This document shows positions 14,150 through 29,100 of a DNA stretch of 45,819 nt, one piece after another. The notes beneath the pieces were generated by a model. That model was not told where the DNA came from. It saw only the letters and a list, made by a program, of their open reading frames with translations, and ran no database searches. The position numbers and the translations under genes were made by a program. Origin of the DNA: Frankia nepalensis (lineage in GTDB: Bacteria > Actinomycetota > Actinomycetes > Frankiales > Frankiaceae); assembly GCF_016786325.1 (NCBI RefSeq), contig NZ_JADWYU010000108.1:1-45819 (forward strand), in the 5' to 3' direction. The stretch's first letter is position 1. Each line of letters opens with the position of its first letter.

Positions 14150-14611
14150 TCAGGACGCGCGGGTGAGCAGGACGACGGGGATGTCGCGGTCGGTGCGCTT
14201 CTGGTAGTCGGCGTACGGGGGCCAGACCTCGACCATCCTGGGCCAGAGGCGGGCCTTCTCGTCCGGCGTCGCGACGCGGGCGGTGGCCTCGAAGACGTCC
14301 GCGCCGACCTGGACGGTGACGGCCGGGTCGGCGGTCAGGTTGAGGTACCAGAGCGGGTGCTTCGGGGCGCCGCCGACGGACGCGACGATCACGTAGTCGC
14401 CGCCGTCCTGGCCGTAGATCAGCGCGGTGCGCCTGGGCTGGCCCGAGCGGCGCCCGGTCGTGGTGAGCAGCAGCGTCGGGACGCCCTCGCTGAGCTCGCC
14501 GTTGGGGCCGTACCAGAGGTGCCCGTTCTCGCCGCCGCTGTCGAGATAGCGCTGGGTGTGGTCGGCCACCCAGTTGGTCGGGCTCAGAGACGGTGCCGTT
14601 GACTTGGCCAT
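14150..14611 (-). CDS. Deazaflavin (F420)-dependent nitroreductase family protein
   Basis: 153 aa, split-barrel fold of the Ddn/FDOR family. ATG 14611 (MAKSTAPSLSP) is preferred over the longer frame because upstream sequence is low-complexity. The family core is clear: VPTLLLTTTGRRSGQPRRTA, LIYGQDGGDYVIVASVGG and HPLWYLNLTADPAVTVQVG. The closing VWPPYADYQKRTDRDIPVVL is typical. These proteins use F420H2, or sometimes other cofactors, to reduce quinones or nitroaromatics; the native substrate is unknown. It is convergent with the histidine kinase gene, 30 bp apart, and is one of two F420-linked proteins in the window. Confidence 0.88.
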   Translation of the reverse strand: MAKSTAPSLSPTNWVADHTQRYLDSGGENGHLWYGPNGELSEGVPTLLLTTTGRRSGQPRRTALIYGQDGGDYVIVASVGGAPKHPLWYLNLTADPAVTVQVGADVFEATARVATPDEKARLWPRMVEVWPPYADYQKRTDRDIPVVLLTRAS

Positions 14612-15049
14612 GCGGCCATCCTGCCCCGCGGTCGGAGACCGTGCCGCGTCGCGCCCGTCACGCCGCCCCGTCACGCCGCCCGGTCCGGCGGGCCGGCCGG
14701 CCCGGCGGCCCGGCGGCCCGGCGAGGCCAGACGCCCAGCGGGCCGGTGGGCCGTCGTCTCGTCGGCCGCACCCGGTCATGGCTTGTGGTGTGTTCGGTCC
14801 ATGATCCCAGGGCCTGTGGCGGCGAAAACGCTCTCTTCGGGCGCCAGAACCTATGGCCCGATCCCAGGACCCCGATCCCAGGACATGGTGACGACGCCGA
14901 ACTGGGTGGCAGCACGCTGTGGATCATGAAGCCGGCTGGGGCGGAAGCTCGCCTGGGCGCCGTCGCGAGGCGGTGAGGCGGAGCCGCCGCGAGGTGGTGA
15001 GCCGCCGGACGGCGCACCGGTCGGTGCCTGGCCGGGCGCGCCGGCGGGG
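14612..15049. other. Gene-free region between two minus-strand genes
   Basis: About 440 bp with no convincing ORF. It contains a GGCCCGGC-rich tract near 14690-14730 and short direct repeats of GATCCCAGGAC near 14805-14885. It should hold the promoter of the nitroreductase-like gene and the 3' UTR of the MocR-type gene; neither can be pinned down. Confidence 0.4.
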
Positions 15050-16402
15050 TCAGCCGCGGGCGGCGTCGGCGAGCAGGTCGGCCACGGCGTCGAGGTCGTC
15101 GTCGGGGATGAGGCCGACGGTGACCCGCAGGTGGGCGGCGCCGAGCGGCGCGGCCTCGAACGGGGTGCCCGGGGCGGCGCCCACGCCGCGCGCGGCGAGT
15201 GACACGAGCGCGACCTGCTCGTCGGCGACCTGGATCCACAGGTTGATGCCGTCGCCGGCCTGCGCGCGCACGCCGCGGGCCGCGAGCGCCGCGGTCAGCC
15301 GCTCGCGGCGGCGGGCGTAGGTGGCGCGCGCCGCCGCGAGCGCGTGCTCGGTGTCGTCGTCGTCGAGCAGCTCGGCGAGCACGGCCTGCAGCAGTCGGCT
15401 CGACCAGCCCGGGCCGAGGAGGCGGCGGCTGGCCAGCGCGCCGATCACCGACTCCACCCCACCGACCGCCGCGAGCCGCAGGTCGGGGCCGTGGCTCTTG
15501 GAGAAGCCGCGGATGTGCACGGTCGCCTCCGGCAGGAACGCCCCGACGCTCACCGGCGGCGCCGTGGCCACGTCGCCGGCGTGGTCGTCCTCGATGACGA
15601 CGACGCCGCGCCCGGCGAGCAGCCCGGCGAGCCGCTCGGCGCGGGCGGCCGTCATGCTGACCCCGGTCGGGTTCTGCGCGCGTGGCTGCAGGTAGAGCGC
15701 CACCGGGCCGCCGGGCGCGCCGGCCGGGCCGGCGGCCTCCAGCGCGGCGCGCAGCGCGTCCGGGCGGATTCCCTCGTCGTCGAGCCCGAGGGGCACGACC
15801 TCGGCGCCGACGACCTCCAGCAGGTCCAGCAGGGGCGGGAAGCACGGGTTCTCGACCAGCACCCGGCCGCCGAACCCGACGAGGACCCCGGTCACCCGGT
15901 CGAGCGCGTCCATGGCGCCGTCGACCACGGTCAGCGCGGCCGGCGGGAACGGCCAGCGCGCGCGCAGCGCCTTCTCCAGCGCGGGCAGCACCGGGTCGTC
16001 GAGGTAGCTCGCGGTCAGGCTGCCGGCGGCGGCGACCCGGGCCAGCACCGGGGCGATGTCGGGAAGCAGCGCCGCATCCGGGGTGCCGGTGGAGTAGTCG
16101 TGTGGGAGCCGGCCGGGGCTGCGGGTGATCCGGCGGTAGCGGCGCGGGTCGGCGCTGGCCGGCGGGCCGGCCAGCACGAACGTTCCGGCGCGTCCACGGG
16201 GCGAGATCACGCCGGCGCGGGCCAGGGTGCGCCAGGCCTGGCTGACGGTGGTCGGGCTGATGCCGAGCTCGGTGGCGAGCTCGCGCACGGTCGGCAGCCG
16301 GGTGCCGGCCGGCAGCGTGCCCGCGGAGACCAGCCGGCTGACGGAGCCCGCGATGCCGCGCGCGGAGCGGTCGTCGACCGCCGAGACGATCATGTCGATC
16401 AC
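15050..16402 (-). CDS. MocR-type regulator (GntR HTH + class I aminotransferase domain)
   Basis: Transcription factor of about 450 aa. GTG 16402 is chosen because GGGAGGGAGGGG lies about 7 bases upstream; ATG 16393 is an alternative. The N-terminus is a winged helix of GntR type (SRLVSAGTLPAGTRLPTVRE, then LATELGISPTTVSQAWRTLA). From about residue 95 a fold-type I aminotransferase-like domain follows (YLQPRAQNPTGVSM, VVIEDDHAGDV, HIRGFSKSHGPDLRLA, with the PLP lysine in FSKSHGPD). MocR proteins bind PLP plus an amino compound to control nearby catabolic genes. It is divergent from the pyrimidine catabolic cluster, so it probably regulates that cluster, perhaps sensing beta-alanine. This is inference from position. 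Confidence 0.88.
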   Translation of the reverse strand: MIDMIVSAVDDRSARGIAGSVSRLVSAGTLPAGTRLPTVRELATELGISPTTVSQAWRTLARAGVISPRGRAGTFVLAGPPASADPRRYRRITRSPGRLPHDYSTGTPDAALLPDIAPVLARVAAAGSLTASYLDDPVLPALEKALRARWPFPPAALTVVDGAMDALDRVTGVLVGFGGRVLVENPCFPPLLDLLEVVGAEVVPLGLDDEGIRPDALRAALEAAGPAGAPGGPVALYLQPRAQNPTGVSMTAARAERLAGLLAGRGVVVIEDDHAGDVATAPPVSVGAFLPEATVHIRGFSKSHGPDLRLAAVGGVESVIGALASRRLLGPGWSSRLLQAVLAELLDDDDTEHALAAARATYARRRERLTAALAARGVRAQAGDGINLWIQVADEQVALVSLAARGVGAAPGTPFEAAPLGAAHLRVTVGLIPDDDLDAVADLLADAARG

Positions 16403-16458
16403 GCGGCGGCCCCTCCCTCCCGCAACCTCGCCTGTAACAAGAAGAAACAAAGTGAGAA

Positions 16459-16487
16459 TTGTCCGGACCCGAGTGTGACAGTAGTCT
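16459..16487 (+). promoter_or_regulatory. Candidate promoter of the pyrimidine catabolism operon
   Basis: In the AT-richer middle of the divergent region, TTGTCC (16459-16464) and TAGTCT (16482-16487) are separated by 17 bases, fitting a sigma-70-type -35/-10 pair reading rightward. The start codon of the first operon gene lies about 210 bases downstream. The MocR-type regulator would be expected to bind in this same stretch. Confidence 0.4.
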
Positions 16488-16700
16488 GCGGACACGCCAA
16501 ACCGGCCCGATCCGGCCCCGCCGGCCGGAATCCGCCGATTCGCCGGGCCGGCCGGCCCGGCGTCGGGTCTGGCGGTTTGCGGGCTGGCGTGGCGGCGGGG
16601 TTCGGTGGTCGGTAGTCGCGGCAGGGCCACGACCTGGCCGCCGGATGCCGGGGCGACCGCCCCGGCGGGTGGCCCGGCGCGGGAAGGAGAGCGAACGGCG

Positions 16701-17540
16701 ATGAGCAGGGTGATCCGCGCGGCGCTCGTCCAGGCGAGGTGGACGGGCGACAAGGAATCCATGATCAAGGCGCATGAGGAGTACGCGCGGTCGGCCGCGG
16801 CCCAGGGCGCGAAGGTCATGTGTTTCCAGGAGCTGTTCTACGGCCCGTACTTCTGCCAGGTGCAGGACCCGGAGTACTACGCGTACGCGGAGTCGGTGCC
16901 CGGCCCGACTGTCGAGCGGTTCCAGGCGCTCGCGGCCGAGCTGGGCATGGTGCTGGTGCTGCCGGTCTACGAGCAGGAGCAGCCGGGCGTCCTCTACAAC
17001 ACGGCCGCGGTCGTCGACGCGGACGGGACGTACCTCGGCAAGTACCGCAAGACCCACATCCCGCACGTGAAGGGCTTCTGGGAGAAGTTCTACTTCCGGC
17101 CCGGGAACCTGGGCTACCCGGTGTTCGACACCGCGGTCGGCCGAGTGGGTGTCTACATCTGCTACGACCGGCACTTCCCGGAGGGCTGGCGGGCGCTCGG
17201 GCTGAACGGCGCCGAACTGGTCTTCAACCCGTCGGCGACGTCGCGTGGGCTGTCGAACTACCTGTGGAAGCTGGAGCAGCCGGCCGCCGCCGTCGCGAAC
17301 GAGTACTACATCGGCGCGATCAACCGCGTGGGCATCGAGGACCTCGGCGACGACGACTTCTACGGCACGAGCTACTTCGTCGACCCGGAGGGCAAGTTCG
17401 TAGACGGGACGGGCGACGCGCACGAGCCCGAGCTGATGGTCCGCGACCTGGACATGGACCTGCTGACCGAGGTCCGCAACCGCTGGGCGTTCTACCGCGA
17501 CCGCCGCCCCGACCAGTACGCCGACCTGACCAGGCCCTGA
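16701..17540 (+). CDS. Nitrilase-family beta-ureidopropionase (N-carbamoyl-beta-alanine amidohydrolase)
   Basis: Cytosolic C-N hydrolase, 279 aa; AAGGAGA lies 10 bases before ATG 16701. The catalytic Glu-Lys-Cys triad is visible: E44 in CFQELFYGPYF, K117 in KYRKTHIPH and C154 in GVYICYDRHFPEG. The extended motif with Arg-His-Phe-Pro after the Cys and the overall length fit the beta-ureidopropionase/N-carbamoyl-amidohydrolase branch. It would hydrolyse N-carbamoyl-beta-alanine to beta-alanine, CO2 and ammonia, the third step of reductive uracil degradation. It is the first gene of the cluster with dihydropyrimidinase and the semialdehyde dehydrogenase, which supports the substrate. Another N-carbamoyl amino acid cannot be excluded. 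Confidence 0.88.
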   Translation: MSRVIRAALVQARWTGDKESMIKAHEEYARSAAAQGAKVMCFQELFYGPYFCQVQDPEYYAYAESVPGPTVERFQALAAELGMVLVLPVYEQEQPGVLYNTAAVVDADGTYLGKYRKTHIPHVKGFWEKFYFRPGNLGYPVFDTAVGRVGVYICYDRHFPEGWRALGLNGAELVFNPSATSRGLSNYLWKLEQPAAAVANEYYIGAINRVGIEDLGDDDFYGTSYFVDPEGKFVDGTGDAHEPELMVRDLDMDLLTEVRNRWAFYRDRRPDQYADLTRP

Positions 17541-17875
17541 CGGTTCGTCCCCCCGCCCCGACTCTCCTTGACCCCGCGACGTCAAAAGATCTCGTCACCG
17601 CGCTGGCGCGGAGGCCGGCCCCCGAGCGAAGCGAGGTGGCCCCCACAGGGAGTGACCCAAACGGGACGGCCGATCGCAAGGCAGCCGAGCTGGCGCGGAG
17701 GCGCGCCTCCGCGGAGGCCTCCCTACGAGCGAAGCGAAGTGGTCGGGCCGCAGCGGAGGTCGCCGGAGCGCACGTGAGCGGAGGAGGACGGCGCGCGGAG
17801 GTCCCTTGGGAGCGAAGCGAGCAAGGGGCCGGAGCGCGCCGCCCGGACGGAGCGAACCAGCAAAGAGGAGCCTCG
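17541..17875. repeat. Repeat-rich spacer with three GAGCGAAGCGAG copies and palindromes
   Basis: This 335-bp spacer inside the catabolic cluster holds GAGCGAAGCGAG at 17624-17635, a one-mismatch copy at 17727-17738 and another at 17810-17821. It also has an 18-bp perfect palindrome (GCGGAGGCGCGCCTCCGC, 17695-17712) overlapping GCCTCCGCGGAGGC (17705-17718). Many GCGGAGG words recur. Short open frames here look like repeat by-products. The spacer should form strong RNA structure between the ureidopropionase and dihydropyrimidinase genes. Confidence 0.7.
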
Positions 17876-19288
17876 ATGAAGACGCTGATCACCGGTGGGA
17901 CCGTCGTTGGCCCGCTCGGCGCCACGCCTACGGACGTGCTCGTCGACGGGGAGACGATCGCCGCGCTGTACGCCCCGGGTGTGGCGTCCGCGAGCGGGGT
18001 GGTCGCGGACAAGGTGCTCGACGCGACCGGGAAGTACGTGATCCCGGGCGGGGTGGACGTGCATACCCACATGCAGCTGCCCTTCGGCGGCACGTTCGCC
18101 TCGGACACCTTCGAGACGGGCACGATCGCGGCGGCCTGGGGCGGCACCACCACGATCATCGACTTCGCGGTGCAGCGGGCCGGTGAGGTCGTCCAGGACG
18201 GTCTGGCCGCCTGGCACGCCAAGGCGGACGGGAACTGCGCCATCGACTACGGCTTCCACATGATCGTGGGCGGCGTGGACGACGACGCGCTGAAGGCGAT
18301 GGACTACCTCGTCGAGCATGAGGGGATCACCAGCTTCAAGCTGTTCATGGCGTACCCGGGCGTCTTCTACAGCGACGACGGCCAGATCCTGCGGGCGATG
18401 CAGAAGGCGTCCGACAACGGCGCGCTGATCATGATGCACGCGGAGAACGGCATCGCGATCGATGTGCTCGCCGCGCAGGCGCTCGCCAGGGGCCAGACGG
18501 ACCCGGTCTACCACGGCGTCACCCGGCCGTCGGCGCTCGAGGGCGAGGCGACCCACCGGGCGACCGTGCTCGCCCAGGTCGCCGGCAACACGCCGCTGTA
18601 CTTCGTGCACATGTCCGCGTCCGAGGCGCTGGGCGTCGTGTCGGCGGCCCGGTCCGCTGGGCGCAACGTGTTCGCGGAGACCTGCCCGCAGTACCTCTAC
18701 CTGACCCTGGAGGACCAGCTCGGCGCGCCCGGGTTCGAGGGCGCGAAGTGGGTGGCGTCGCCGCCGCTGCGCCCGCGCGACGAGCCGCACCGCGACGACC
18801 TGTGGCGGGGGCTGCGCACCGACGACCTGGCGGTCGTCTCCACCGACCACTGCCCCTTCTGCTTCAAGGACCAGAAGGAGCTCGGCCGCGGCGACTTCAC
18901 GAAGATCCCGAACGGGATCGGCACGGTCGAGCACCGGGTGGACCTCGTCTACCAGGGCGTCGCCTCGGGCAGGCTGTCGCTTCAGCGCTGGGTCGAGACC
19001 GTCTCGACGACGCCCGCGCGGATGTTCGGCCTTTACCCGCGCAAGGGCATCGTCGCGCCCGGCTCGGACGCGGACATCGTGATCTATGACCCGAACGCGA
19101 CCACGACGATCGGAGTCGCCACCCACCACATGAACCTGGACCATTCCGCCTGGGAGGGCTTCGAGATCGCCGGGAAGGTCGACACGGTGCTCTCTCGCGG
19201 GACTGTCGTCGTCGCCGACGGCGCCTTCCACGGCCGCGCCGGCCACGGGCAGTACCTGCGCCGCGGCCTGACCCAGTACCTGCGCTGA
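17876..19288 (+). CDS. hydA: Dihydropyrimidinase (D-hydantoinase family)
   Basis: Cyclic amidohydrolase, 470 aa; AGAGGAG is 5 bases before ATG 17876. It opens dihydrouracil or dihydrothymine to the N-carbamoyl-beta-amino acid. The binuclear metal site is complete: H63 and H65 (VDVHTHMQ), carboxylated K155 (SFKLFMAYPG), H188 (MMHAENG), H245 (YFVHMSA) and D324 (STDHCPF). The Tyr in MAYPGVFYSDD and the CPFCFKDQK loop are typical of dihydropyrimidinases rather than allantoinases or dihydroorotases. Length is normal for the family. It acts between the unknown reductive step and the ureidopropionase encoded immediately upstream. Confidence 0.93.
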   Translation: MKTLITGGTVVGPLGATPTDVLVDGETIAALYAPGVASASGVVADKVLDATGKYVIPGGVDVHTHMQLPFGGTFASDTFETGTIAAAWGGTTTIIDFAVQRAGEVVQDGLAAWHAKADGNCAIDYGFHMIVGGVDDDALKAMDYLVEHEGITSFKLFMAYPGVFYSDDGQILRAMQKASDNGALIMMHAENGIAIDVLAAQALARGQTDPVYHGVTRPSALEGEATHRATVLAQVAGNTPLYFVHMSASEALGVVSAARSAGRNVFAETCPQYLYLTLEDQLGAPGFEGAKWVASPPLRPRDEPHRDDLWRGLRTDDLAVVSTDHCPFCFKDQKELGRGDFTKIPNGIGTVEHRVDLVYQGVASGRLSLQRWVETVSTTPARMFGLYPRKGIVAPGSDADIVIYDPNATTTIGVATHHMNLDHSAWEGFEIAGKVDTVLSRGTVVVADGAFHGRAGHGQYLRRGLTQYLR

Positions 19289-19441
19289 CCCATCGCCCCT
19301 CGTCGATCCCGCTCACCGCCCGCCACCGGCCCGTCGCCGTGCCCCGTCCATACGCCGCCCGCGCCTCGCCCGTGGCGGCCCGCGGCGGGGTGGCCCGGGA
19401 CACAACCTGTGCGCGGAGGCGACCGAGGAGATACGAAAGGT

Positions 19442-19460
19442 ACTAAGTAAGCGCTCAGTT
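19442..19460. promoter_or_regulatory. Possible operator upstream of mmsA
   Basis: ACTAAGTAAGCGCTCAGTT is an imperfect dyad (ACTnAG...CTnAGT) in a locally AT-richer patch about 55-70 bases before the dehydrogenase start. The pattern resembles TetR-family operators in front of actinobacterial acyl-CoA genes. If real, mmsA may have its own promoter and regulator. Evidence is limited to the sequence pattern. Confidence 0.3.
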
Positions 19461-19513
19461 CGGGCAGCGAGCGCTGGCCAGGGCGGGCGCATTTCGACAG
19501 GGGAGAGGGTGCC

Positions 19514-21004
19514 ATGCGGGACATCGGGCACTGGATCGACGGCAAGGCAGTGGCGGGCAGCTCCGGCCGCTTCGGGCCGGTGTGGAACCCGGCGACCGGC
19601 GAGCAGGCCGCGCAGGTCGCCCTGGCCAGCGTCGAGGAGGTCAACGCGGTCGTCGCCACCGCCAAGGCGGCGTTCCCGGCCTGGCGGGCGACCGGGCTCG
19701 GGCGCCGCGCCGAGGTGCTGTTCCGGTTCCGCGAGCTGCTGGACGCGAACCGCAAGGAGATCGCGGCGCTCGTCACCGCCGAGCACGGCAAGACCATCGA
19801 CGACGCGCTCGGCGAGGTCGCCCGCGGCCTGGAGAACGTCGAGTTCGCCTGCGGCGCGCCGCACCACCTGCGCGGCGGCTTCTCCGAGCAGGTGTCCACC
19901 GGTGTCGACGTGACCGAGATCCGCCAGCCGCTGGGCGTCGTCGCCGGCATCACGCCGTTCAACTTCCCGGCGATGGTCCCGCTGTGGATGCTGGCCAACG
20001 CGCTCGCCTGCGGGAACGCGTTCATCCTCAAGCCGAGCGAGAAGGACCCGTCGGCCTCGCTGCTGCTGGCCGAGCTGCTGACGCGGGCGGGCCTGCCCGA
20101 CGGCGTGTTCAACGTCGTCCACGGCGACAAGGTCGCCGTCGACACGATCCTCACCCACCCGGACATCGCCGCCGTCAGCTTCGTCGGCTCGACCCCGATC
20201 GCGCGCTACGTCTACGAGACCGGCACGGCGGCGGGCAAGCGGGTGCAGGCGCTCGGCGGCGCCAAGAACCACATGGTCGTGCTGCCGGACGCGGACGTCG
20301 CGGCCGCGGCCGACGCCGCCGTGTCGGCTGGCTATGGCTCGGCGGGCGAGCGCTGCATGGCGATCTCGGTGGTGGCGGCGGTCGGCGACGTCGCCGAGCC
20401 GCTGATCGAGGCGATCGCCGAGCGGGTGCGCAAGATCAAGGTCGGCGCGGGCGCCGACCCGGACAGCGAGATGGGCCCGCTGATCAGCCGTGAGCACCGC
20501 GACAAGGTCGCCGGCTACCTGGACGCGGCCACGGCCGACGGCGCCACCGTCGTCATCGACGGCCGCGAGGACCCGGTGACCGCCGGCCCGGGCTTCTTCC
20601 TCGGGCTGAGCCTCGTCGACAACGTGCCGACGACGAGCGCCGCCTACACCGACGAGATCTTCGGCCCGGTGCTGGCGGTCGTCCGCTGCGAGACCTACGC
20701 CGACGCGGTCAGGCTGATCGAGGAGAGCCCGTACGGCAACGGTGTGGCGATCTTCACCCGGGACGGCGGCGCGGCGCGGCGGTTCGCGTTCGAGATCGGA
20801 GTCGGCATGGTCGGCGTCAACGTGCCGATCCCGGTTCCGGTCGCCTACTACAGCTTCGGCGGCTGGAAGGCATCGCTGTTCGGTGACCTGCACATGTACG
20901 GCCCGGAAGGGATCAAGTTCTACACGAGGACCAAGGTCGTCACCACCCGCTGGCCGGACCCGGCGAGCAGCTCGGTGAACCTGGGCTTCCCGCAGACCAG
21001 GTAA
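19514..21004 (+). CDS. mmsA: CoA-acylating (methyl)malonate-semialdehyde dehydrogenase
   Basis: Aldehyde dehydrogenase, 496 aa, ATG 19514 with GGGGAGAGGG upstream. It oxidatively decarboxylates malonate or methylmalonate semialdehyde to acetyl- or propionyl-CoA. Features: ITPFNFPAMVPLWM, ILKPSEKDPSAS, SFVGSTPIARYVYE, catalytic Cys near residue 281 in GSAGERCMAIS, and EIFGPVLAVVR. Conserved Arg positions typical of the CoA-dependent MmsA subfamily are present (GERCMAIS and the C-terminal YYSFGGWKASLFGD). In this cluster it would consume the semialdehyde made from beta-alanine by the aminotransferase encoded downstream. It may alternatively or additionally serve valine or inositol catabolism. 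Confidence 0.92.
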   Translation: MRDIGHWIDGKAVAGSSGRFGPVWNPATGEQAAQVALASVEEVNAVVATAKAAFPAWRATGLGRRAEVLFRFRELLDANRKEIAALVTAEHGKTIDDALGEVARGLENVEFACGAPHHLRGGFSEQVSTGVDVTEIRQPLGVVAGITPFNFPAMVPLWMLANALACGNAFILKPSEKDPSASLLLAELLTRAGLPDGVFNVVHGDKVAVDTILTHPDIAAVSFVGSTPIARYVYETGTAAGKRVQALGGAKNHMVVLPDADVAAAADAAVSAGYGSAGERCMAISVVAAVGDVAEPLIEAIAERVRKIKVGAGADPDSEMGPLISREHRDKVAGYLDAATADGATVVIDGREDPVTAGPGFFLGLSLVDNVPTTSAAYTDEIFGPVLAVVRCETYADAVRLIEESPYGNGVAIFTRDGGAARRFAFEIGVGMVGVNVPIPVPVAYYSFGGWKASLFGDLHMYGPEGIKFYTRTKVVTTRWPDPASSSVNLGFPQTR

Positions 21005-21158
21005 CCCACGGAACACGGCCATCGCTCTGGGCCGGGCGGGCGCCCAGGTGTCCTCGCCCGGTTCAGGGCGGCGGCCGGGACAGCGAGATGAAGATCGAAC
21101 ATCGGCGGCGGGACCCGGGCTCCGGGCCCCGGGACGGCTAGGAGAGGGAGTAAGCCTG

Positions 21159-22211
21159 ATGGAAATCGGCGTCGTGCTGCAGACGAACCCGCCGGCCTCC
21201 CGGGTGGTGGAGCTGGCCCGCCAGGCCGAGACGCTCGGCTTCTCGCATGTCTGGACGTTCGACTCCCACCTGCTGTGGGAGGAGCCGTTCGTCATCTACA
21301 GCCAGATCCTGGCCGCCACCCGCAAGGTGGTCGTCGGCCCGATGGTGACGAACCCGGCGACCCGGGACTGGACGGTGACCGCCTCGCTGTTCGCCACCCT
21401 CAACGAGATGTTCGGCAACCGGACGATCTGTGGCATCGGCCGCGGTGACTCCGCCGTCCGGGTGCTCAACGGCAAGCCGACCACCCTCGCGACCCTGCGG
21501 GAATGCGTCGAGGTCGTCCGTGAGCTGGCCAACGGCCGCGAGGCCGAGGTCAACGGCACCAGGCTGCGCTTCCCGTGGGGCACCGAAAGCCGGCTCGACA
21601 TCTGGATCGCGGGCTACGGCCCCAAGGCGCTCGCGCTCACCGGCGAGGTCGGCGACGGCTTCATCCTGCAGCTCGCCGACCCGGACATCGCCGCGTGGAC
21701 GATCGACGCGGTACGGGCCGCGGCCGCCGCCGCGGGCCGTGACCCGGCGTCGGTGAAGATCTGCGTCGCCGCTCCCGCCTACATCGGCGGCGACGACGAG
21801 GCGTCGCTGGCCCACCAGCGCGAGCAGTGCCGCTGGTTCGGCGGCATGGTCGGCAACCACGTCGCCGACCTCGTGGCCCGCTACGGGGGCGAGGGCTCCG
21901 CCATCCCGCAGGCCCTGACCGACTACATCAAGGGCCGGACCGGCTACGACTACAACGAGCACGGACGGGCTGGCAACACCCACACCACGTTCGTCCCGGA
22001 CGAGATCGTCGACCGGTTCTGCCTGCTCGGTTCGCCCGAGGCGCATGTGCGCCGGCTGACGGAGCTCGCCGCGCTCGGCGTCGACCAGTTCGCGATCTAC
22101 CTGCAGCACGACAACAAGCTCGGCACCCTGGAGGCCTACGGCGAGCGGGTGATCCCGGCGATCGCCGCGCACGTCCAGGCGAAGTCGCCGGCGGAGCCCG
22201 ACCAGGCATGA
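21159..22211 (+). CDS. LLM-class F420-dependent oxidoreductase
   Basis: TIM-barrel luciferase-like flavin/F420 enzyme, 350 aa, with AGGAGAGGG before ATG 21159. Family features include GFSHVWTFDSHLLWEEPFVI, the non-prolyl/prolyl bulge region VGPMVTNPATRDWTVTAS, GRTICGIGRGDS-like text at residues about 88-98, and IWIAGYGPKALALTGEVGDG. As far as I recall, it resembles the actinobacterial subfamily TIGR03842, often found beside dihydropyrimidinase genes. Its ATGA overlap with the transporter genes and position after mmsA place it inside the pyrimidine operon. No dihydropyrimidine dehydrogenase is encoded, so this enzyme is a candidate for uracil reduction with F420H2. That role is inference; an oxygenase role like RutA is an alternative. 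Confidence 0.88.
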   Translation: MEIGVVLQTNPPASRVVELARQAETLGFSHVWTFDSHLLWEEPFVIYSQILAATRKVVVGPMVTNPATRDWTVTASLFATLNEMFGNRTICGIGRGDSAVRVLNGKPTTLATLRECVEVVRELANGREAEVNGTRLRFPWGTESRLDIWIAGYGPKALALTGEVGDGFILQLADPDIAAWTIDAVRAAAAAAGRDPASVKICVAAPAYIGGDDEASLAHQREQCRWFGGMVGNHVADLVARYGGEGSAIPQALTDYIKGRTGYDYNEHGRAGNTHTTFVPDEIVDRFCLLGSPEAHVRRLTELAALGVDQFAIYLQHDNKLGTLEAYGERVIPAIAAHVQAKSPAEPDQA

Positions 22212-23194
22212 TGACCACGGCGTCACCACCCACGGCGTCCCCGCCCGCCGAGCCGCGGACGCGGGTGTCCCGGTCGCGCCCGCCCGGCTGGCGGGGCGGT
22301 GAACGGCTGCGCCGCGGCCTGCTCGCCGTCACGGCCGTCCTCGTGCTCTGCGCGCTGTGGGAGCTTTACAAGGCCATCGGGCCGGCGACGGGCGGCCGGC
22401 TGCTCGGCGTCCCGGTGCTGCCACGCGCGAACGACATCGCGATGCCGCACACCTGGGCGATCCTCGACGAGCTTGGCAAACAGGAGGTGCGGACAGCCGG
22501 CAGCGACACCGTCGGCGCCTCCGTCCTCAAGGCGATGTGGTTCACCATCAAGATCTCGCTGGTGGGCCTGGTCACCGGAATCGTCGTCGGCGTGCTGCTG
22601 GCGGTCGCCATGGCCCGGCTGAAGATCGTCGAGCGCGGCCTGCTGCCGTACGTCGTCATCAGCCAGACCGTGCCGCTGATCGCGCTTGCCCCGCTGGTCG
22701 CTGGCTGGGGTGGAAAGCTGCACCTCGGTGGCCTGGAATGGCAACGCTGGATGTCGGTCTCGCTGATCGCCGCGTACCTCGCGTTCTTCCCGGTGGCGGT
22801 CGGCATGCTGCGCGGCCTGCAGTCGCCGGGGGCGAACGCCCTTGAGCTGATGCGCAGCTACGCCGCCTCCTGGTGGCAGACCTTCCTGCGGCTGCGGCTG
22901 CCGACCTCGGTGCCGTTCCTGCTGCCCGCGCTGCGCCTCGCCGCCGCCTCGGCGGTGATCGGCGCGATCGTCGCCGAGATCTCCACCGGCACCCGCGGTG
23001 GCATCGGTCGCCTCATCGTCGACTACTCCCAGTCCGCCAGCAGCAACTCAAGCCGGCTCTATGACGCGGTGCTCGGCGCGGCCGTCGTCGGGCTGATCTT
23101 CGCGGGCCTGGTCTCGCTCCTCGAGGTGGCGCTGACCTGGCGCCGCGGCCGCGGCGCGGCGCCAGGCGGCACGACACAGAAGGCGGGCTCATGA
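22208..23194 (+). CDS. ABC transporter permease (SsuC/ThiX type)
   Basis: Membrane subunit of an NMT1/SsuABC-type importer, 328 aa. The start overlaps the LLM gene stop (ATGA; ATG 22211 is a close alternative). A roughly 35-residue Pro/Arg-rich cytoplasmic leader precedes the first helix (LLAVTAVLVLCALWELYKAI). The EAA-like loop is around SPGANALELMRSYAASWWQT and the following LRLRLPTSVPFLLPAL. The segment AIVAEISTGTRGGIGRLI is typical of this permease class. It pairs with the second permease two genes downstream to form a heterodimer, unusual for Ssu-type systems, which are often homodimeric. Confidence 0.88.
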   Translation: MMTTASPPTASPPAEPRTRVSRSRPPGWRGGERLRRGLLAVTAVLVLCALWELYKAIGPATGGRLLGVPVLPRANDIAMPHTWAILDELGKQEVRTAGSDTVGASVLKAMWFTIKISLVGLVTGIVVGVLLAVAMARLKIVERGLLPYVVISQTVPLIALAPLVAGWGGKLHLGGLEWQRWMSVSLIAAYLAFFPVAVGMLRGLQSPGANALELMRSYAASWWQTFLRLRLPTSVPFLLPALRLAAASAVIGAIVAEISTGTRGGIGRLIVDYSQSASSNSSRLYDAVLGAAVVGLIFAGLVSLLEVALTWRRGRGAAPGGTTQKAGS

Positions 23195-24096
23195 CGTCGA
23201 CCACACCGCCACCGGTGCCGGCCCTCTCGCCCACGGCGGCCGGGCCAGCGGGCGCGCCGCCGGCGGTCGAGGTGCCGGCGGTCGAGGTGCGCGGGGTCGA
23301 CCAGGTCTTCCCGGTCGCCGGCGGTGGGCAGACGGTGGCGCTGTCCGGCATCGACCTGACCGTCGCGCCCGGCGAGTTCGTCTCGCTGATCGGCCCGTCC
23401 GGCTGCGGCAAGTCCACGCTGCTGCGCGTGGTCGGCGACCTGCTCACGCCGACCCGCGGCGAGGTCCGGGTCTTCGGGCAGGAGGCAGGTGAGGCGCGCC
23501 GCGCCCAGACGTACGGCATCGCCTTCCAGCAGGCCGGGCTGCTCGAGTGGCGCACGGTCGCCGGCAACATCGAGCTGCCGCTGCAGGTCCACGGCGTGAA
23601 GAAGAAGGAGCGCCGTGAGCGGGCCCGCGAACTGCTCGAACTGGTCGGCCTCGCCGACTTCGCCGGCCACTGGCCGGCGCAGTTGTCCGGCGGGATGCAG
23701 CAGCGGGTGGCGATCGCCCGGGCGCTCGCGGAGCGTCCCCGGCTGCTGCTGCTCGACGAGCCGTTCGGCGCGCTCGACGAGATGACCCGGGAGCGGATGC
23801 AGGCCGAGCTGGCCCGGATCCGGCACGAGACGGGGACGACCGTCATCCTGGTCACCCACTCGATCCCCGAGGCGGTGTTCCTGTCCGACCGGGTCGCGGT
23901 GATGTCGCCCCGGCCGGGCCGGATCACCCAGCTCATCGAGGTGGACCTGCCCGGTCGCCTCGGCCCTCCCGGGGAGTCGGGCGACGCGCCCAGCACTGAC
24001 GACGCGCCCAGCGCTGACGATGTCCGTGAGCAGGCCGCCTTCTTCGCCGCGGTCACGGCCGTGCGCGAGGCGCTGCGCGCCGGGGGCCCGACGTGA
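23191..24096 (+). CDS. ABC transporter ATP-binding protein (SsuB/ThiZ type)
   Basis: ATPase of the importer, 301 aa; ATG 23191 overlaps the permease stop. After about 25 Pro/Ala-rich residues come Walker A (GPSGCGKST), the Q-loop (IAFQQAGLLEWRTV), signature (LSGGMQQRVAIARAL), Walker B (LLLLDEPFGALDE) and the switch His (VTHSIPEAVFLSDR). The FGALDEMTRERMQ stretch is typical of nitrate/sulfonate/taurine/pyrimidine-type ATPases. The C-terminus includes a short duplicated DAPSTDDAPSADD segment. It sits between two permease genes with 4-bp overlaps on both sides. Confidence 0.92.
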   Translation: MTSTTPPPVPALSPTAAGPAGAPPAVEVPAVEVRGVDQVFPVAGGGQTVALSGIDLTVAPGEFVSLIGPSGCGKSTLLRVVGDLLTPTRGEVRVFGQEAGEARRAQTYGIAFQQAGLLEWRTVAGNIELPLQVHGVKKKERRERARELLELVGLADFAGHWPAQLSGGMQQRVAIARALAERPRLLLLDEPFGALDEMTRERMQAELARIRHETGTTVILVTHSIPEAVFLSDRVAVMSPRPGRITQLIEVDLPGRLGPPGESGDAPSTDDAPSADDVREQAAFFAAVTAVREALRAGGPT

Positions 24097-25034
24097 GCGC
24101 GCCGGCCGGGCGGCAGGGCGGCCGCGGTGGACAGGTGACGGCGGTCGTCGCGCCGATCGTTCTCGGTGCCGCCGTCGTCGGGCTGTGGGAACTGTTCGTC
24201 AAGGCGAACGACATCAAGCCGTATCTGCTCCCGGCGCCGTCGGCGATTTGGGCGCAGTTCCGCCGCAGCTTCGACCTGATTCTGGACGCCGCCTGGGTGA
24301 CGGGCCTGAACGCGTTGGTCGGCCTGCTGGTGGGCCTGGTCCTCGGCCTCCTGGCGGCGCTGGTCGCGGCCCGCTCGCGCATCGCCGACGGGATGCTCGG
24401 CCCGATCGCGGCCGCGATGAACGCGATCCCGATCATTGCGCTGGCGCCTCTGCTGAACACGATGTTCTCGGCGACATCGTCGGTGCCGCGCCGGATGGTC
24501 GTCGCGATTGTGGTGTTCTTCCCGGTGTTTGTGAACACGGCGCGCGGGCTACGACAGGTCTCCCCGGTGCAACGGGAGCTGATGCGCTCGCTCAACGCCG
24601 GACCGGGGGCCTTCGCCCGGATGGTGCAGCTGCCCGGCGCGCTGCCCTACTTCTTCACCGGGTTCCGGCTGGCATCGTCGCTGGCCATCATCGCGGCCGT
24701 CGTCGCCGAGTACTTCGGCGGCCGGCAGAACGGGCTGGGCTCGCGAATCGCCTCGGCGGCGGCGAGCTCCGGCTACCCCAGGGCATGGGCCTTCGTCATA
24801 GCGGCCTGCCTGATCGGAATTCTGGTGTACCTCGTCGCGGGTCTGCTGGAGTGGCTCGCCACCCCGTGGCGGCGCGCCGGCTCCGCCGCTGGCCGTCGGC
24901 GCCGGCCGCCCGCGGTTCCCGCGCTGGCCGCGGCACCCGCGACGGCACCGGCGATGGCGATGGCACCGGCGACGGGTGTGGCACCGGCGACGGACGACGC
25001 GAGCGCGCCGTGGACGGCGTCACGCGATGGCTAA
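24093..25034 (+). CDS. ABC transporter permease (SsuC/ThiX type)
   Basis: Second membrane subunit of the importer, 313 aa; GTG 24093 overlaps the ATPase gene stop (GTGA). Helices begin at VVAPIVLGAAVVGLWELFV. PYLLPAPSAIWAQF, ERLM-type loop text (SPVQRELMRSLNAGPGAFAR, then VQLPGALPYFFTGFRLA) and AAVVAEYFGG are standard for the family. The last 50 residues are a hydrophilic Ala/Pro/Thr/Met repeat tail (APATAPAMAMAPATG), created by near-repeats of a GCACCGGCGA word in the DNA and probably not functional in transport. Confidence 0.88.
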   Translation: MSAPAGRQGGRGGQVTAVVAPIVLGAAVVGLWELFVKANDIKPYLLPAPSAIWAQFRRSFDLILDAAWVTGLNALVGLLVGLVLGLLAALVAARSRIADGMLGPIAAAMNAIPIIALAPLLNTMFSATSSVPRRMVVAIVVFFPVFVNTARGLRQVSPVQRELMRSLNAGPGAFARMVQLPGALPYFFTGFRLASSLAIIAAVVAEYFGGRQNGLGSRIASAAASSGYPRAWAFVIAACLIGILVYLVAGLLEWLATPWRRAGSAAGRRRRPPAVPALAAAPATAPAMAMAPATGVAPATDDASAPWTASRDG

Positions 25035-25250
25035 CGGCTGAGGGACCGGCCGCGGCGAGAGCGCGGGCCGCGCGGAACCAGCACAGGCGATGCGGCGGGG
25101 CAGGCGGTGAACCGGGCCGCACCGCGGGCGACGAGGCCCGCGACCATCCGGTTCACCGGCGGGCGACGTGGCCCGGGGGACGCGAGGCGAGGCGCGGGCG
25201 GCGTGGCCCGCTGACAACAACTCGGACCGGGATGGGCCGGTAACAGACGC

Positions 25251-25276
25251 GGCCGCGCGACGTGGCCGCGCGACGT
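25251..25276. repeat. 13-bp tandem repeat upstream of the binding-protein gene
   Basis: GGCCGCGCGACGT occurs twice in succession (25251-25263, 25264-25276) within the 294-bp gap between the permease and the lipoprotein gene. Several looser GACGTGGCC and GCGTGGCCC words precede it. The gap is otherwise without recognisable genes and may contain an internal promoter for the abundant binding protein. Confidence 0.6.
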
Positions 25277-25328
25277 GACCATGGCCTCTGCCCAGTCCCG
25301 GCCAGGCACGTGGGCAACGGAGGGGTAC

Positions 25329-26468
25329 ATGAAACGACGGCTGGCGGGCGGGCTCGCCGCGGTGCTGGCGGGCACACTGGTGCTCGCGGCCTGTGGCGAC
25401 GACGACACGACGGGCGAAGGTGGGGGCGGCGCCGCGGCGCTCACCCCGGTCAAGCTGCAGTTGCAGTGGGCCTATCAGGCGCAGTTCGCGGGCTACATCG
25501 CCGCGCGGGACAAGGGCTTCTTCGAGGAGGAGGGCCTCGACGTCGAGCTTCTCGAAGCCGCGGTCGACACGCCTCCGCACCAGGTGCTCGCCGACGGCGG
25601 CGCCGACTTCGCGATCGCCTGGGTGCCGAAGGCGCTGCAGATCCGCGAGTCGGGCGCGGAGATCACGAACATCGCGCAGATCTTCCAGCGGTCCGGCACG
25701 CTGCAGGTCAGCTTCAAGGACAAGGGGATCAACGCCCCGGCCGACCTCGCGGGCAAGAAGGTCGGTAACTGGGGCTTCGGCAACGAGTACGAGCTGTTCG
25801 CGGCGATGACCGAGGCGGGGATCGACCCGTCCAGCGGCGTCACGTTGGTGCAGCAGGACTTCAACATGAACGCGTTGCTGTCCGGTGACATCGATGCCGC
25901 CCAGGCGATGAGCTACAACGAGTACGCCCAGGTACTGGAGGCGGAGAACCCGGCGACCGGCGAGCTCTACAAGCCGGAGGACTTCACCGTCCTGGACTGG
26001 GACGAGGTCGGCACGGCGATGCTCCAGGACTCCATCTGGGCGGACACCGAGAAGTTGGAAGACCCCGCGTACCAGGACACGGCAACCAAGATTATCAAGG
26101 CCTCGATCAAGGGCTGGGTGTACTGCCGCGACAACCCGGAGGAATGCCGGGACCTGGTCGTCGCCGCCGGTTCCAAGCTCGGCGCGAGCCACCAGCTCTG
26201 GCAGATGAACGAGGTCAACCAGCTGATCTGGCCCTCGCCGGACGGCATCGGAACGCTCGACGAGGCGGCCTGGAAGCAGACCGTCGAGATCGCCAAGGCC
26301 ACCAAGAACGCGGACGGCGACACCGTGCTGACGAAGGACCCCGAGGGTCTCGCCTACACGACCGACTACGTCACCAAGGCGCTCGAGGAACTCAGGGGCG
26401 AGGGCGTCGACGTGACCGGCACCAACTACAAGCCGATCACCGTCACCCTTGAGCCGGGTGGCGTCTGA
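25329..26468 (+). CDS. ABC transporter substrate-binding lipoprotein (NMT1/THI5-like)
   Basis: Extracellular ligand-binding component, 379 aa. ATG 25329 is chosen over ATG 25275 because GGAGG at 25319-25323 precedes it and a lipoprotein signal follows immediately: MKRRLAGG, a hydrophobic core and lipobox LAAC with the Cys about 22 residues in. The mature protein has the NMT1/THI5 fold signatures LQLQWAYQAQFAGYIAARDK, GFFEEEGLDVEL and VGNWGFGNEYELFAAM. This family binds pyrimidines, aminopyrimidines or sulfonates. Given the catabolic genes around it, uracil, thymine or a dihydropyrimidine is the likely ligand, by context only. A strong terminator follows. Confidence 0.9.
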   Translation: MKRRLAGGLAAVLAGTLVLAACGDDDTTGEGGGGAAALTPVKLQLQWAYQAQFAGYIAARDKGFFEEEGLDVELLEAAVDTPPHQVLADGGADFAIAWVPKALQIRESGAEITNIAQIFQRSGTLQVSFKDKGINAPADLAGKKVGNWGFGNEYELFAAMTEAGIDPSSGVTLVQQDFNMNALLSGDIDAAQAMSYNEYAQVLEAENPATGELYKPEDFTVLDWDEVGTAMLQDSIWADTEKLEDPAYQDTATKIIKASIKGWVYCRDNPEECRDLVVAAGSKLGASHQLWQMNEVNQLIWPSPDGIGTLDEAAWKQTVEIAKATKNADGDTVLTKDPEGLAYTTDYVTKALEELRGEGVDVTGTNYKPITVTLEPGGV

Positions 26469-26519
26469 CCCAGGCCGTGGCCCGTTGAAAGTGGCCTGAC
26501 GGCCTGACCGATCCGGCTG

Positions 26520-26563
26520 GCCCGTCGCGCGGCGCGTCTTCCCACCCGCGTCGCGCGACGGGC
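26520..26563 (+). terminator. Strong terminator-like hairpin after the binding-protein gene
   Basis: The arms at 26520-26536 and 26547-26563 (GCCCGTCGCGCGGCGCG and its near-complement, one G-T pair) form a 17-bp stem with a 10-nt loop, about 50 bp after the lipoprotein stop. It separates the transporter genes from the aminotransferase, so the latter may have its own promoter or rely on read-through. Confidence 0.75.
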
Positions 26564-26623
26564 CTGTCCGGGGCAGGCCTGGATACGGTGGGAAACCCTG
26601 GCGGCGAGGAGGCAGCGAGTCTC

Positions 26624-27964
26624 ATGGGGACGAACAGCACGGCGTACGACGACGACCGCAGGCATGTTTTCCACTCGTGGTCGGCGCAGGCGACGCTCGC
26701 CCCGCTGGTGGTCAACCGGGCTGAGGGCAGCCACTTCTGGGACTCCAGCGGCAAGCGCTACCTGGATTTCTCCTCGCAGCTGGTGAACGCCAACATCGGT
26801 CACCAGCACCCCCGGGTCGTCGAGGCGATCATCGAGCAGGCCCGCAAGCTCACCACGATCGCCCCGTTCCATGCCAACGAGACCCGCTCGGAGGCGGCCC
26901 GGCTCATCGCGGCGCACGCGCCCGGTGATCTGGACATGGTGTTCTTCACGAACGGCGGCGCCGAGGCGACCGAGAACGCGATCCGCATGGCCCGGCTCAC
27001 CACCGGCCGACACAAGATCCTCACGACCTACCGCTCGTATCATGGCGCCACCGGCGGGTCGATCGTCCTGACCGGCGAGCCGCGCCGTTGGCCGAGCGAG
27101 CCCGGCATTGCCGGCGTCGTGCACTTCCACGGTCCCTACCCGTACCGGTCGGCGTTCTACGCGGACAGCGTCGAGCAGGAGGGCGAGCGGGCGCTCGCGC
27201 ACCTCGCCGACACGATCATGCTGGAAGGCCCGTCAACGATCGCGGCTGTGCTGCTGGAGACCGTCGTCGGCACCAACGGAATCCTTGTGCCGCCGGACGG
27301 CTACCTCGCGGGCGTGCGCGAACTGTGCGACCAGCACGGCATCCTGCTGATCCTCGACGAGGTGATGGCCGGCTTCGGCCGCTGCGGCGAGTGGTTCGCC
27401 GCCGACCACTGGGGCGTCGTCCCCGACCTGATCTGCTTCGCCAAGGGCGTCAACTCGGGCTACGTCCCGCTGGGCGGCGTCATCCTGAGCCCGCAGGTCG
27501 CCGAGACCTTCGCGACCCGTCCCTACCCCGGCGGCCTGACCTACTCCGGCCATCCGCTGGCCTGCGCGGCCGCGGTCGGCTCGATCCGGGCGTTCGAGGA
27601 GGAGGGCATCGTCGAGCACGCCCGGATGCTCGGAACGGACATCATCGGACCCGAACTGGCGAAGCTCGCCGCGAACCACCCGAGCGTCGGGGAGGTCCGC
27701 GGCCTGGGTGTCTTCTGGGCGATCGAGCTGGTCCGCGACCGCGAGACCCGCGCGCCGCTGGTGCCGTTCAACGCCGCGGGCCCCGACGCCGCCCCCATGG
27801 CCGCCATCGCCGCCGCCTGCAAGGAGCGGGGCCTGTGGCCGTTCACCCACTTCAACCGGGTGCACGTCGTCCCGCCGTGCACGATCACCGCCGACGACCT
27901 GCGTGAGGGCCTGGCCATCCTCGACGAGGCCCTGACGGTCGCCGACTCGTTCACGACCGCCTGA
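26624..27964 (+). CDS. Class III PLP aminotransferase (probable beta-alanine:pyruvate type)
   Basis: Fold-type I aminotransferase, 446 aa. ATG 26624 (MGTNSTAYDDD) has GAGGAGG upstream and is preferred to GTG 26588. Motifs: SSGKRYLDFSSQLVNANIGH, FFTNGGAEATENAIRMAR, YRSYHGATGGS, LILDEVMAGFGRCGEWF and the PLP lysine near residue 274 in ICFAKGVNSGYVPLGG. The family moves omega-amino groups. With the surrounding genes, the likely reaction is beta-alanine plus pyruvate or 2-oxoglutarate to malonate semialdehyde, feeding MmsA. Some relatives are taurine:pyruvate aminotransferases, so taurine cannot be excluded. The last codons and stop lie inside a 27-bp duplication. Confidence 0.9.
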   Translation: MGTNSTAYDDDRRHVFHSWSAQATLAPLVVNRAEGSHFWDSSGKRYLDFSSQLVNANIGHQHPRVVEAIIEQARKLTTIAPFHANETRSEAARLIAAHAPGDLDMVFFTNGGAEATENAIRMARLTTGRHKILTTYRSYHGATGGSIVLTGEPRRWPSEPGIAGVVHFHGPYPYRSAFYADSVEQEGERALAHLADTIMLEGPSTIAAVLLETVVGTNGILVPPDGYLAGVRELCDQHGILLILDEVMAGFGRCGEWFAADHWGVVPDLICFAKGVNSGYVPLGGVILSPQVAETFATRPYPGGLTYSGHPLACAAAVGSIRAFEEEGIVEHARMLGTDIIGPELAKLAANHPSVGEVRGLGVFWAIELVRDRETRAPLVPFNAAGPDAAPMAAIAAACKERGLWPFTHFNRVHVVPPCTITADDLREGLAILDEALTVADSFTTA

Positions 27965-27994: not shown

Positions 27995-28410
27995 GTGGCC
28001 ACCGCGGCGCCCACCGGCTCGTTCGGCTGGGGGGCGCCGCAGCGCGGAGCGTGCCCGCTTCCTCGGTCGCTTCCAGCTCGATCTCCAGCCGCCCGGCGCG
28101 CTCCGTGCGCGCTCGGTCCTCGGCCTCCCCGCGCTGACCAGTCCGCTGGCAGACGTCGACGCGGCCGCCGCGTTCGTCCGGCCGCGTCGACGGGACAAGT
28201 CCCGCGCAGGCGATCAGATCAGGGTTGTTGAACCGCGCGTGGTTCCTCGAGGCCGCATGCGACAACCGCGCTTGCGAAGTGCCCTCTCGATCGGGTGGAC
28301 GGAAGCATGGAGAACTCCCATCCTCTCAGCTCGGAGGGCATTTTCGCGTTCAAACCAGGCGCCAGCAAGGCATATGCGACGGCGCATTCCGGCCAGGGGT
28401 GCACGGGTCC
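27995..28410. other. Gene-free region at start of accessory island
   Basis: About 415 bp. Short open frames exist on both strands but none has a ribosome site plus coding-like composition. GC content falls toward the right, where the island with small secreted proteins begins. Confidence 0.4.
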
Positions 28411-28764
28411 TTAGTGCTCCAGTATTCCGGAGGAGTGTGGTGTAATACTCCAGAAATCCGGAGGATTGTAGTGGCCGTAGTAGCCGTCGGCGTAGCCGTC
28501 ATAATACTGGTCATCGCACCCGTGTGCCCCCGCCGAGGGTTCGTAGGGGATATCCCAAAACACTGCCCAAACAGCGTCGGAATAGCCCCAGTCGTAGCAC
28601 GCCCTGTTCTGCGGCACCGGGCTGAGCTGTGTGGCGGCGGGCGCTGTTGGCGCGGCGGTCGCGGCGGTCGCGGCGGTCGCGGCGGCTGGTACTCCGACAC
28701 CCGCGGTGGCCAGAATGGCCGACGCCGCGGCCGCCAGCACGCGATGCTTGGCCGTGGTAGCCAT
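28411..28764 (-). CDS. Small secreted tyrosine-rich protein A
   Basis: 117 aa, not recognised as a known family. ATG 28764 has GGGAG 6 bases upstream. It starts with a typical Sec signal peptide (MATTAKHRVLAAAASAILA, cleavage probably near AAA/ATA around residue 30), followed by an Ala/Thr run caused by a triplicated 9-bp DNA unit. The mature part has two cysteines (RACYDWGY and HGCDDQYYDGYADGYYG), probably one disulfide, and is rich in Tyr, Trp and Asp. A paralogue lies 337 bp upstream on the same strand. Compared with that copy, this one has lost the stop after PDF and runs on for 15 residues. Confidence 0.72.
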   Translation of the reverse strand: MATTAKHRVLAAAASAILATAGVGVPAAATAATAATAAPTAPAATQLSPVPQNRACYDWGYSDAVWAVFWDIPYEPSAGAHGCDDQYYDGYADGYYGHYNPPDFWSITPHSSGILEH

Positions 28765-28906
28765 GAGCTGCTCCCATCCTCTGGTATTAGGAACTCATTC
28801 ATGAAGCAGCCAGGTGCTGGCTGCCGCAGCCGCCGCGGCCCACGGTGGCAGGCGGCTTCCTGGTTCCGGCTGTCGGCTCGAAAAACTCGGCAGGGAGGGG
28901 TTACGG
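28681..28906. repeat. 226-bp direct repeat, copy 1
   Basis: Contains the signal-peptide coding region and about 140 bp of 5' leader of small protein A. It matches 29311-29536 over its full length with only about two differences seen by eye. The leader includes a hairpin (GCAGCCAG/CTGGCTGC, 28806-28824) present in both copies. The identity ends sharply after GGGGTTACGG. Confidence 0.9.
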
Positions 28907-28917
28907 CTGGTGTCGGA

Positions 28918-28950
28918 GAGCCGTGTGTGGGAGAACCACATGCACGGAGC
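28918..28950 (+). ncRNA. Group II intron domain V-like hairpin (possible intron remnant)
   Basis: A 33-nt stem-loop starts with GAGCCGTG and ends with CACGGAGC, with an upper TGTGG/CCACA helix, a GAGAA loop and a two-base bulge (TG) on the 3' side. This matches the layout of bacterial group II intron domain V: AGC triad at the 5' base, 2-nt bulge, short capped upper stem. The triad would face A-G and G-A instead of A-U and G-U pairs, so it is degenerate or a look-alike. No maturase gene is present. It lies directly at the end of repeat copy 1. Confidence 0.35.
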
Positions 28951-29100
28951 GGAAGGGCCGCTGGCGAAGCCAGACCTCGTGGCAGCACAGCGCACACGCG
29001 CTGCCGGGCGGCGACAGTGTCCGACGGAAGCCCGTCGACCCCGTCCCGGCCACAGGCCCTGACCAGCCAGCGGCCTACCTTGCCAAGGGCGCGCGAGTCC

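Follow-up and report, generated by a model that had tools for sequence, protein, structure and literature searches.

The window analysed here is a 45,819-nt stretch of Frankia nepalensis DNA (NZ_JADWYU010000108.1, contig C374 of a 10.7 Mb assembly of 398 contigs that is 96.8% complete). Its positions 15050 to 27964 carry a candidate locus for reductive pyrimidine degradation, in which one gene of the luciferase-like monooxygenase (LLM) fold, belonging to family TIGR03842, is our candidate for the enzyme of the first step. The genes of the locus are as follows.

15050..16402, minus strand: MocR/GntR-type regulator with a pyridoxal phosphate domain (PF00392 GntR plus PF00155), divergent from the catabolic operon
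16701..17540, plus strand: PydC, nitrilase superfamily, probable beta-ureidopropionase (N-carbamoyl-beta-alanine amidohydrolase), by solved-structure homology only
17876..19288, plus strand: PydB/HydA dihydropyrimidinase (TIGR02033, 540 bits, cut-off 393)
19514..21004, plus strand: MmsA, CoA-acylating (methyl)malonate-semialdehyde dehydrogenase (TIGR01722, 718 bits, cut-off 448.5; solved relative at 2.8e-185)
21159..22211, plus strand: TIGR03842 LLM enzyme (587.8 bits), candidate F420H2-dependent uracil/thymine reductase
22208..23194, plus strand: ATP-binding cassette (ABC) importer permease 1 (PF00528), ATGA-coupled to the LLM gene
23191..24096, plus strand: ABC importer ATPase (PF00005)
24093..25034, plus strand: ABC importer permease 2 (PF00528)
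25329..26468, plus strand: NMT1/THI5-like substrate-binding protein (PF09084, 2.1e-38, scanned on the longer frame from 25275)
26588..27964, plus strand: class III aminotransferase, candidate beta-alanine/beta-aminoisobutyrate transaminase (NF004718, 766 bits, cut-off 472)

An earlier, sequence-only reading of this DNA had named the catabolic genes and the NMT1-type importer, and family models or solved-structure matches recovered all of them; the overlap by which it had coupled the LLM gene to the importer was likewise confirmed, the LLM stop and the permease 1 start sharing the ATGA at 22208-22211. The regulator frame, as called from 15050 to 16819, is too long, and judged from the sequence its true start is probably the GTG at 16402. 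Among solved structures, HydA matched D-hydantoinases and dihydropyrimidinases with E-values down to 3.4e-147, PydC matched an N-carbamoylputrescine amidohydrolase best (1.4e-55) and named beta-ureidopropionases at 9.1e-51 and 1e-50, and the aminotransferase lay nearest to taurine:2-oxoglutarate aminotransferase (1.7e-108). The substrate-binding protein weakly matched a formylaminopyrimidine-binding protein (5.5e-16) and THI5 (1.5e-7). Just outside the locus and adjoining the regulator gene, a minus-strand frame at 14150-14779 has an F420H2-dependent quinone reductase domain (PF04075, 163.6 bits), a second F420-type enzyme near the locus.

The sequence-only reading had noted that the window lacks a gene like PydA or PreTA, the ordinary dihydropyrimidine dehydrogenases, and had proposed a search for one elsewhere in the genome. 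Its observation extends to the assembly, where the PreA model NF006183, which matched Escherichia coli and Deinobacterium among 14 control genomes, found nothing over its cut-off; as the assembly is 96.8% complete, about 3% of the genome is unseen. The genome has a single PF01180 protein (L001, contig C373), encoded in a 307-aa frame beside a TerD-like frame. It was considered as a hidden PydA and rejected: it is not PreA-like and reads as dihydroorotate dehydrogenase-like, the 293-aa part scanned staying below every equivalog cut-off. Such a frame would be unusual as the sole PyrD of a 10.7 Mb genome. The oxygenase RutA also has an LLM fold, acts on uracil and depends on flavin mononucleotide (FMN). 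Its model (TIGR03612, 498.3 bits) had no match over cut-off in the assembly, and the window contig was not among the 50 matches at E≤0.001, which led us to reject a RutA-like oxygenase. On gene content the host should be able to make F420, since CofH/FbiC (a 1069-aa frame), CofD and NADPH:F420 reductase (Fno) are all encoded with matches over cut-off.

Residues 2-335 of the LLM protein aligned to TIGR03842 at almost twice the curated cut-off of 295.45 bits, and it is the only member over that cut-off in the genome, the runner-up of 53 LLM-like matches scoring 95.5 bits. The nearest named relative found was from Frankia sp. AiPs1 (83%), in a search that may leave out the records closest to the window. 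LLM genes on haloarchaeal plasmids (25-27%, in other contexts) were not counted as family members. A profile of 16 sequences run against solved structures placed methanogen Mer first (4.8e-51), followed by FGD2, Adf and FGD1, and RutA was not named among its 24 matches at 1e-5. An AlphaFold2 model built from 46 sequences, 71-83% identical to the window protein (predicted local distance difference test 86.1, predicted template-modelling score 0.87), gave a similar ranking in Foldseek: Mer took ranks 1-8 (template-modelling score 0.74-0.78 by query and 0.75-0.85 by target, 21-24% identity) and FGD2 ranks 9-12, so that the first 12 were all F420 enzymes. SfnG, a monooxygenase of the FMN type, followed at rank 13, and luciferase was also among the matches. 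The predicted fold is thus nearest to F420 enzymes, and RutA, which the sequence-only reading had offered as the LLM-fold analogue, is a poor one, the enzyme lying near Mer and the RutA model having no match to it. Stretches VTNP, GIGxGD and GPK are common to Mer and the LLM enzyme. Across 63 aligned rows (duplicates kept, Leisingera and Paracoccus included) there are 62 positions without variation, which include Asn65, Gln171, Asn233, His234, Tyr263, Asp264 and His268; that such residues bind the pyrimidine ring is conjecture.

To place the gene among its relatives, 396 genomes of the phylum were sampled, and in each of them scores were computed only for the four or five best candidates of a first look (TIGR03842 at E≤1e-80, TIGR02033 at E≤1e-100, PreA at E≤1e-60). 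TIGR03842 was present in 84 of these genomes, spread over 20 family labels, and in none of the 14 control genomes; TIGR02033 was present in 128 and PreA in three. The co-occurrence check proposed by the sequence-only reading gave HydA in 83 of the 84 LLM genomes and PreA, at its threshold, in none. The two genes are also close: the LLM gene lay within 20 kb of hydA in 72/84 genomes (in 68 of them with both on one strand) and within 1.5 kb in 38, while two other genomes had them farther apart on one contig and nine on separate contigs. In one of the three PreA genomes (G196), preA stands 1.3 kb from hydA, and the frame adjoining it is PreT-like, a label given by reading and not by a model.

Similar neighbourhoods were found in named relatives, for which the best 80 of at least 594 matched stretches were taken and neighbours were scored by tblastn at E≤1e-20. 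HydA was the commonest partner (74 loci), followed by PydC (68), the importer ATPase (67), the two permeases (64 and 60), the substrate-binding protein (57), the aminotransferase (46), MmsA (45) and the regulator (34). Six loci lack HydA (L066, L082, L113, L119, L123, L144), and in each of them the contig breaks off no more than 1.8 kb upstream of the LLM gene. PreA and PreT-like queries, one each from L053, had no match in the 80 loci. Among the sampled genomes, one locus (L060, 15487-16503, from the single-contig genome G206) has an LLM gene that looks frameshifted near its start.

These counts bear on the possibility that the LLM protein is an F420 oxidoreductase at another step, for example a RutE-like conversion of malonate semialdehyde to 3-hydroxypropionate, with uracil reduced by an unrecognised enzyme. 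LLM-fold F420 enzymes do often use alcohols or carbonyls, the matches include Adf, FGD1 and FGD2, and MmsA and the aminotransferase share the locus with the LLM gene. However, the LLM gene is accompanied by HydA more often than by MmsA or the aminotransferase (some losses being contig ends); the stretches taken from L047 and L052 contain LLM and HydA but gave no MmsA match; the semialdehyde is already dealt with by MmsA; and PreA and LLM never occur together on the hydA plasmids described below. We consider another step improbable.

CofH/FbiC was found (E≤1e-105) in 67 of the 84 LLM genomes, and the 17 without a match at this threshold raised the suspicion that the enzyme is independent of F420. 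This was rejected, because CofD is present in 14 of these genomes, over cut-off in 13 and split in two in the other; its distance from the LLM gene is 7-12 kb in G387 (L065), G206 (L060) and G237 (L064). Thus F420 markers, CofH or CofD, are present in 81/84 LLM genomes. Beside CofD in L065 and L060 stand frames that exceed the cut-offs of TIGR03868 and TIGR03869, a putative F420-0 importer. The five LLM genomes of label f9, probably Microbacteriaceae by comparison with the named loci, had no CofH match at the same threshold, and G237 and G387 gave no candidate at all. By similarity only, with no models applied, the flanks of the 80 named loci held the importer binding protein in 14, the permease in 12 and CofD in 12, with at least one of these in 19 loci, which from their names we take to be nearly all Cellulomonadaceae or Microbacteriaceae, with one Arthrobacter. 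Importer genes and CofD beside the pyrimidine operon are seen in L060 and L065 and in named loci such as L081, L100, L109, L112, L116 and L121. Together with the missing CofH match in the f9 genomes, these importer genes suggest salvage of a deazaflavin precursor; CofD acts on FO, hence the imported compound may be FO rather than F420-0.

The same data speak to a reading in which the LLM protein is an FMN-dependent oxidoreductase or a RutA-like oxygenase and uses no F420. The fold is common to FMN monooxygenases, and SfnG and luciferase do appear among the structural matches, but the F420 enzymes occupy every higher structural rank and the first profile matches, the RutA model is without a match on the window contig, and family members stand in F420 biosynthesis operons as well as in genomes with F420 markers. 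We regard this reading as very improbable indeed, and use of F420 by the LLM enzyme as very likely.

Direct linkage to F420 genes was found on proteobacterial plasmids. In Leisingera caerulea, L. aquaemixtae (L146, L156) and Paracoccus alcaliphilus (L147), the genes cofG-cofH-cofD-cofC-cofE-npdG are followed by a TIGR03842 gene, whose Leisingera product scores 506 bits. The divergent Leisingera operon reads pntA-pntB-aminotransferase-Zn hydrolase-hydA-NCS1 nucleobase symporter-DUF1330, and hydA is on 10/10 listed Leisingera plasmids with the LLM gene. At E≤1e-15 the TetR gene after the LLM gene has no matches other than RutR models, its 194 bits staying below the cut-off of 368, and the symporter resembles allantoin permeases as well, though below the cut-offs of those models. 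The Paracoccus F420 operon lies near formate dehydrogenase genes. We further listed 60 of the 79 hydA plasmid records found, counting plasmid records and not adjacency: 38 have PreA, 11 have LLM, 11 have neither and none has both. In Qingshengfaniella, an NAD(P)-binding (PreT-like) gene, preA, a RutR-like gene, a Zn hydrolase gene, hydA and an importer stand together, and in Thalassospira and Sinorhizobium meliloti preA is about 12 and 9 kb, respectively, from the hydA stretch.

The plasmids also help to judge whether the locus degrades some other cyclic ureide or uracil-like ring, such as hydantoin or a purine product (yanthine, for example), which the LLM enzyme would reduce with F420H2. HydA best matches D-hydantoinases, the Leisingera symporter has its sub-threshold resemblance to allantoin permeases, and the consulted part of a study of uric-acid clusters in Chloroflexota puts forward an F420 LLM enzyme for the role of yanthine reductase (PMC12507026). 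Yet the set of beta-ureidopropionase-like enzyme, aminotransferase and MmsA fits beta-alanine or beta-aminoisobutyrate, the Leisingera regulator is RutR-like, and PreA stands in the place of the LLM gene in relatives; we hold another ring to be about as unlikely as another step.

Several observations weigh against assigning uracil or thymine reduction to the LLM enzyme. The association of LLM with HydA (Fisher p 6e-51) was computed with shared ancestry ignored. HydA occurs without LLM in 45/128 genomes, 43 of which also lack PreA and 18 of which have CofH, so that HydA alone predicts neither enzyme, and one genome (G194, 350 contigs) has LLM with no HydA at E≤1e-100. Of the three PreA genomes only G196 has the gene adjacent to hydA; in G360 it is on another contig and G181 has no HydA match. 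Three fragmented drafts (G115, G224, G232) have neither CofH nor CofD. On the plasmid side, the 19 kb viewed of the Paracoccus record contain no hydA, and this record is missing from the 60 listed. Five loci related to the Leisingera hydA locus were viewed: preA is within the stretch in one and 9-12 kb off on the record in two, and for the other two, Sulfitobacter and Aminobacter, neither PreA nor LLM is listed. Within the locus itself, the nearest solved relatives of the aminotransferase and PydC are the taurine and N-carbamoylputrescine enzymes, and true hydantoinases are among the relatives of HydA. Finally, Glu6 of Mer, mutated (E6Q) in solved entry 8qq8, aligns with Val6 of the LLM enzyme; the residue is not kept, hence the chemistry of Mer is not transferable.

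Taking both sides together, we judge with good confidence that the locus encodes reductive pyrimidine degradation with the first step carried out by the TIGR03842 enzyme and F420H2. That this LLM family is functionally tied to dihydropyrimidinase is nearly certain, and uracil or thymine is the likely substrate on the basis of gene context. The proposal of the sequence-only reading, that the enzyme reduces uracil and thymine with F420H2 in place of PydA, is supported by co-occurrence and adjacency with HydA and by the absence of PreA, and further by the hydA plasmid records, where LLM and PreA are never together, and by the physical linkage of the family to genes of F420 biosynthesis or salvage. 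Non-orthologous replacement of dihydropyrimidine dehydrogenase is in our view the best explanation of these gene patterns.

In the pathway that we propose, the NMT1-type importer would bring the pyrimidine into the cell, and Fno, encoded outside the locus, would use NADPH to supply F420H2. The LLM enzyme would then pass a hydride from F420H2 straight to the 5,6 double bond of the ring, probably to C6, as dihydropyrimidine dehydrogenase does, with neither FMN nor Fe-S clusters, yielding dihydrouracil or dihydrothymine. HydA would open the dihydropyrimidine ring, PydC would release beta-alanine or beta-aminoisobutyrate with CO2 and ammonia, and the aminotransferase and MmsA would lead to acetyl-CoA or propionyl-CoA.

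A broader view, which we hold somewhat better than an even chance, is that TIGR03842 is a widespread family of F420-dependent uracil/thymine reductases forming a further route of pyrimidine breakdown, to which some lineages tie their F420 metabolism. The Leisingera plasmids would then carry a module that joins the full set of F420 biosynthesis genes to those of Fno, transhydrogenase, reductase and HydA. Microbacteriaceae and Cellulomonadaceae, some probably without FbiC, would salvage FO or F420-0 through importers encoded next to the pyrimidine operon.

Beyond the aminotransferase gene, the window has a near-tandem duplication at 28474-29537, with 254 nt repeated at 28654 and 29284 (96%) and further repeats of 139 nt (78%) and 47 nt (96%), at spacings of 630-654 nt. 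The longest frame over it (28225-29796) had no NCBIfam or Pfam family match. Farther on, a minus-strand frame at 30192-31649 has an ADP-ribosylglycohydrolase domain (PF03747), and its C-terminal stretch resembles, by eye, a dual-specificity phosphatase signature.

The recognised first enzyme is wanting in many actinobacterial reductive pyrimidine pathways, with PreA in so few of the 396 genomes compared with HydA, and a named candidate makes this gap directly testable. In the consulted part of a 2015 study of Mycobacterium smegmatis, the genes of the reductive uracil pathway were not all identified (PMC4617892). No report of an F420-dependent uracil/thymine reductase of this kind was found in an open-access library, subscription papers and preprints lying outside that search, and the word 'uracil' does not occur in the main text of a 2021 F420 review. 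If the proposal is true, F420 takes part in everyday nitrogen catabolism, the retention or salvage of F420 in some bacteria would be explained, and a function is assigned to a family of unknown role; more speculatively, the enzyme may act on compounds of the 5-fluorouracil type.

Several known systems come close to the one proposed. Mer is the closest solved relative by profile and fold, but a different substrate is expected here and its Glu6 is not conserved. RutA differs in that its model has no match on the window contig. According to the passages available, NpsU / SSGG-03002 of mureidomycin biosynthesis is a putative F420/FMN oxidoreductase for which genetics show reduction of the uracil C5-C6 bond although in vitro assays failed (PMC10714638); compared by description, it shares uracil-ring reduction with our candidate but acts on an antibiotic. 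In Haloferax volcanii grown on alanine versus ammonium with uracil in the medium, an excerpt of PMC6801745 reports that dpyS, amaB2, mmsA and the gene of the luciferase-family oxidoreductase HVO_A0295A rise together by 5.2 to 5.7 log2 (HVO_A0295A by 5.6 log2), an archaeal parallel by description only; that excerpt names no gene for the reduction of uracil. The Chloroflexota clusters, as described in the consulted part of PMC12507026, likewise have an F420 LLM enzyme proposed where YgfK/UacX or a PydA homologue stands elsewhere, whereas its substrate, if any, is a purine breakdown product. In Clostridium chromiireducens, by the part of PMC7332683 available, PydAc is a ferredoxin-dependent PydA homologue with FMN and Fe-S clusters; it too is a first-step variant with another electron donor, but here the protein family itself is swapped. 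With the PydA/PreTA pathway, the locus shares the HydA, beta-ureidopropionase, aminotransferase and semialdehyde dehydrogenase steps and the first reaction as proposed, while no PydA or PreTA was found and an unrelated LLM-fold enzyme with F420H2, needing no Fe-S clusters or FMN, would take its place. What we propose is a known pathway in variant form, its first step taken over by a new class of enzyme with a new cofactor.

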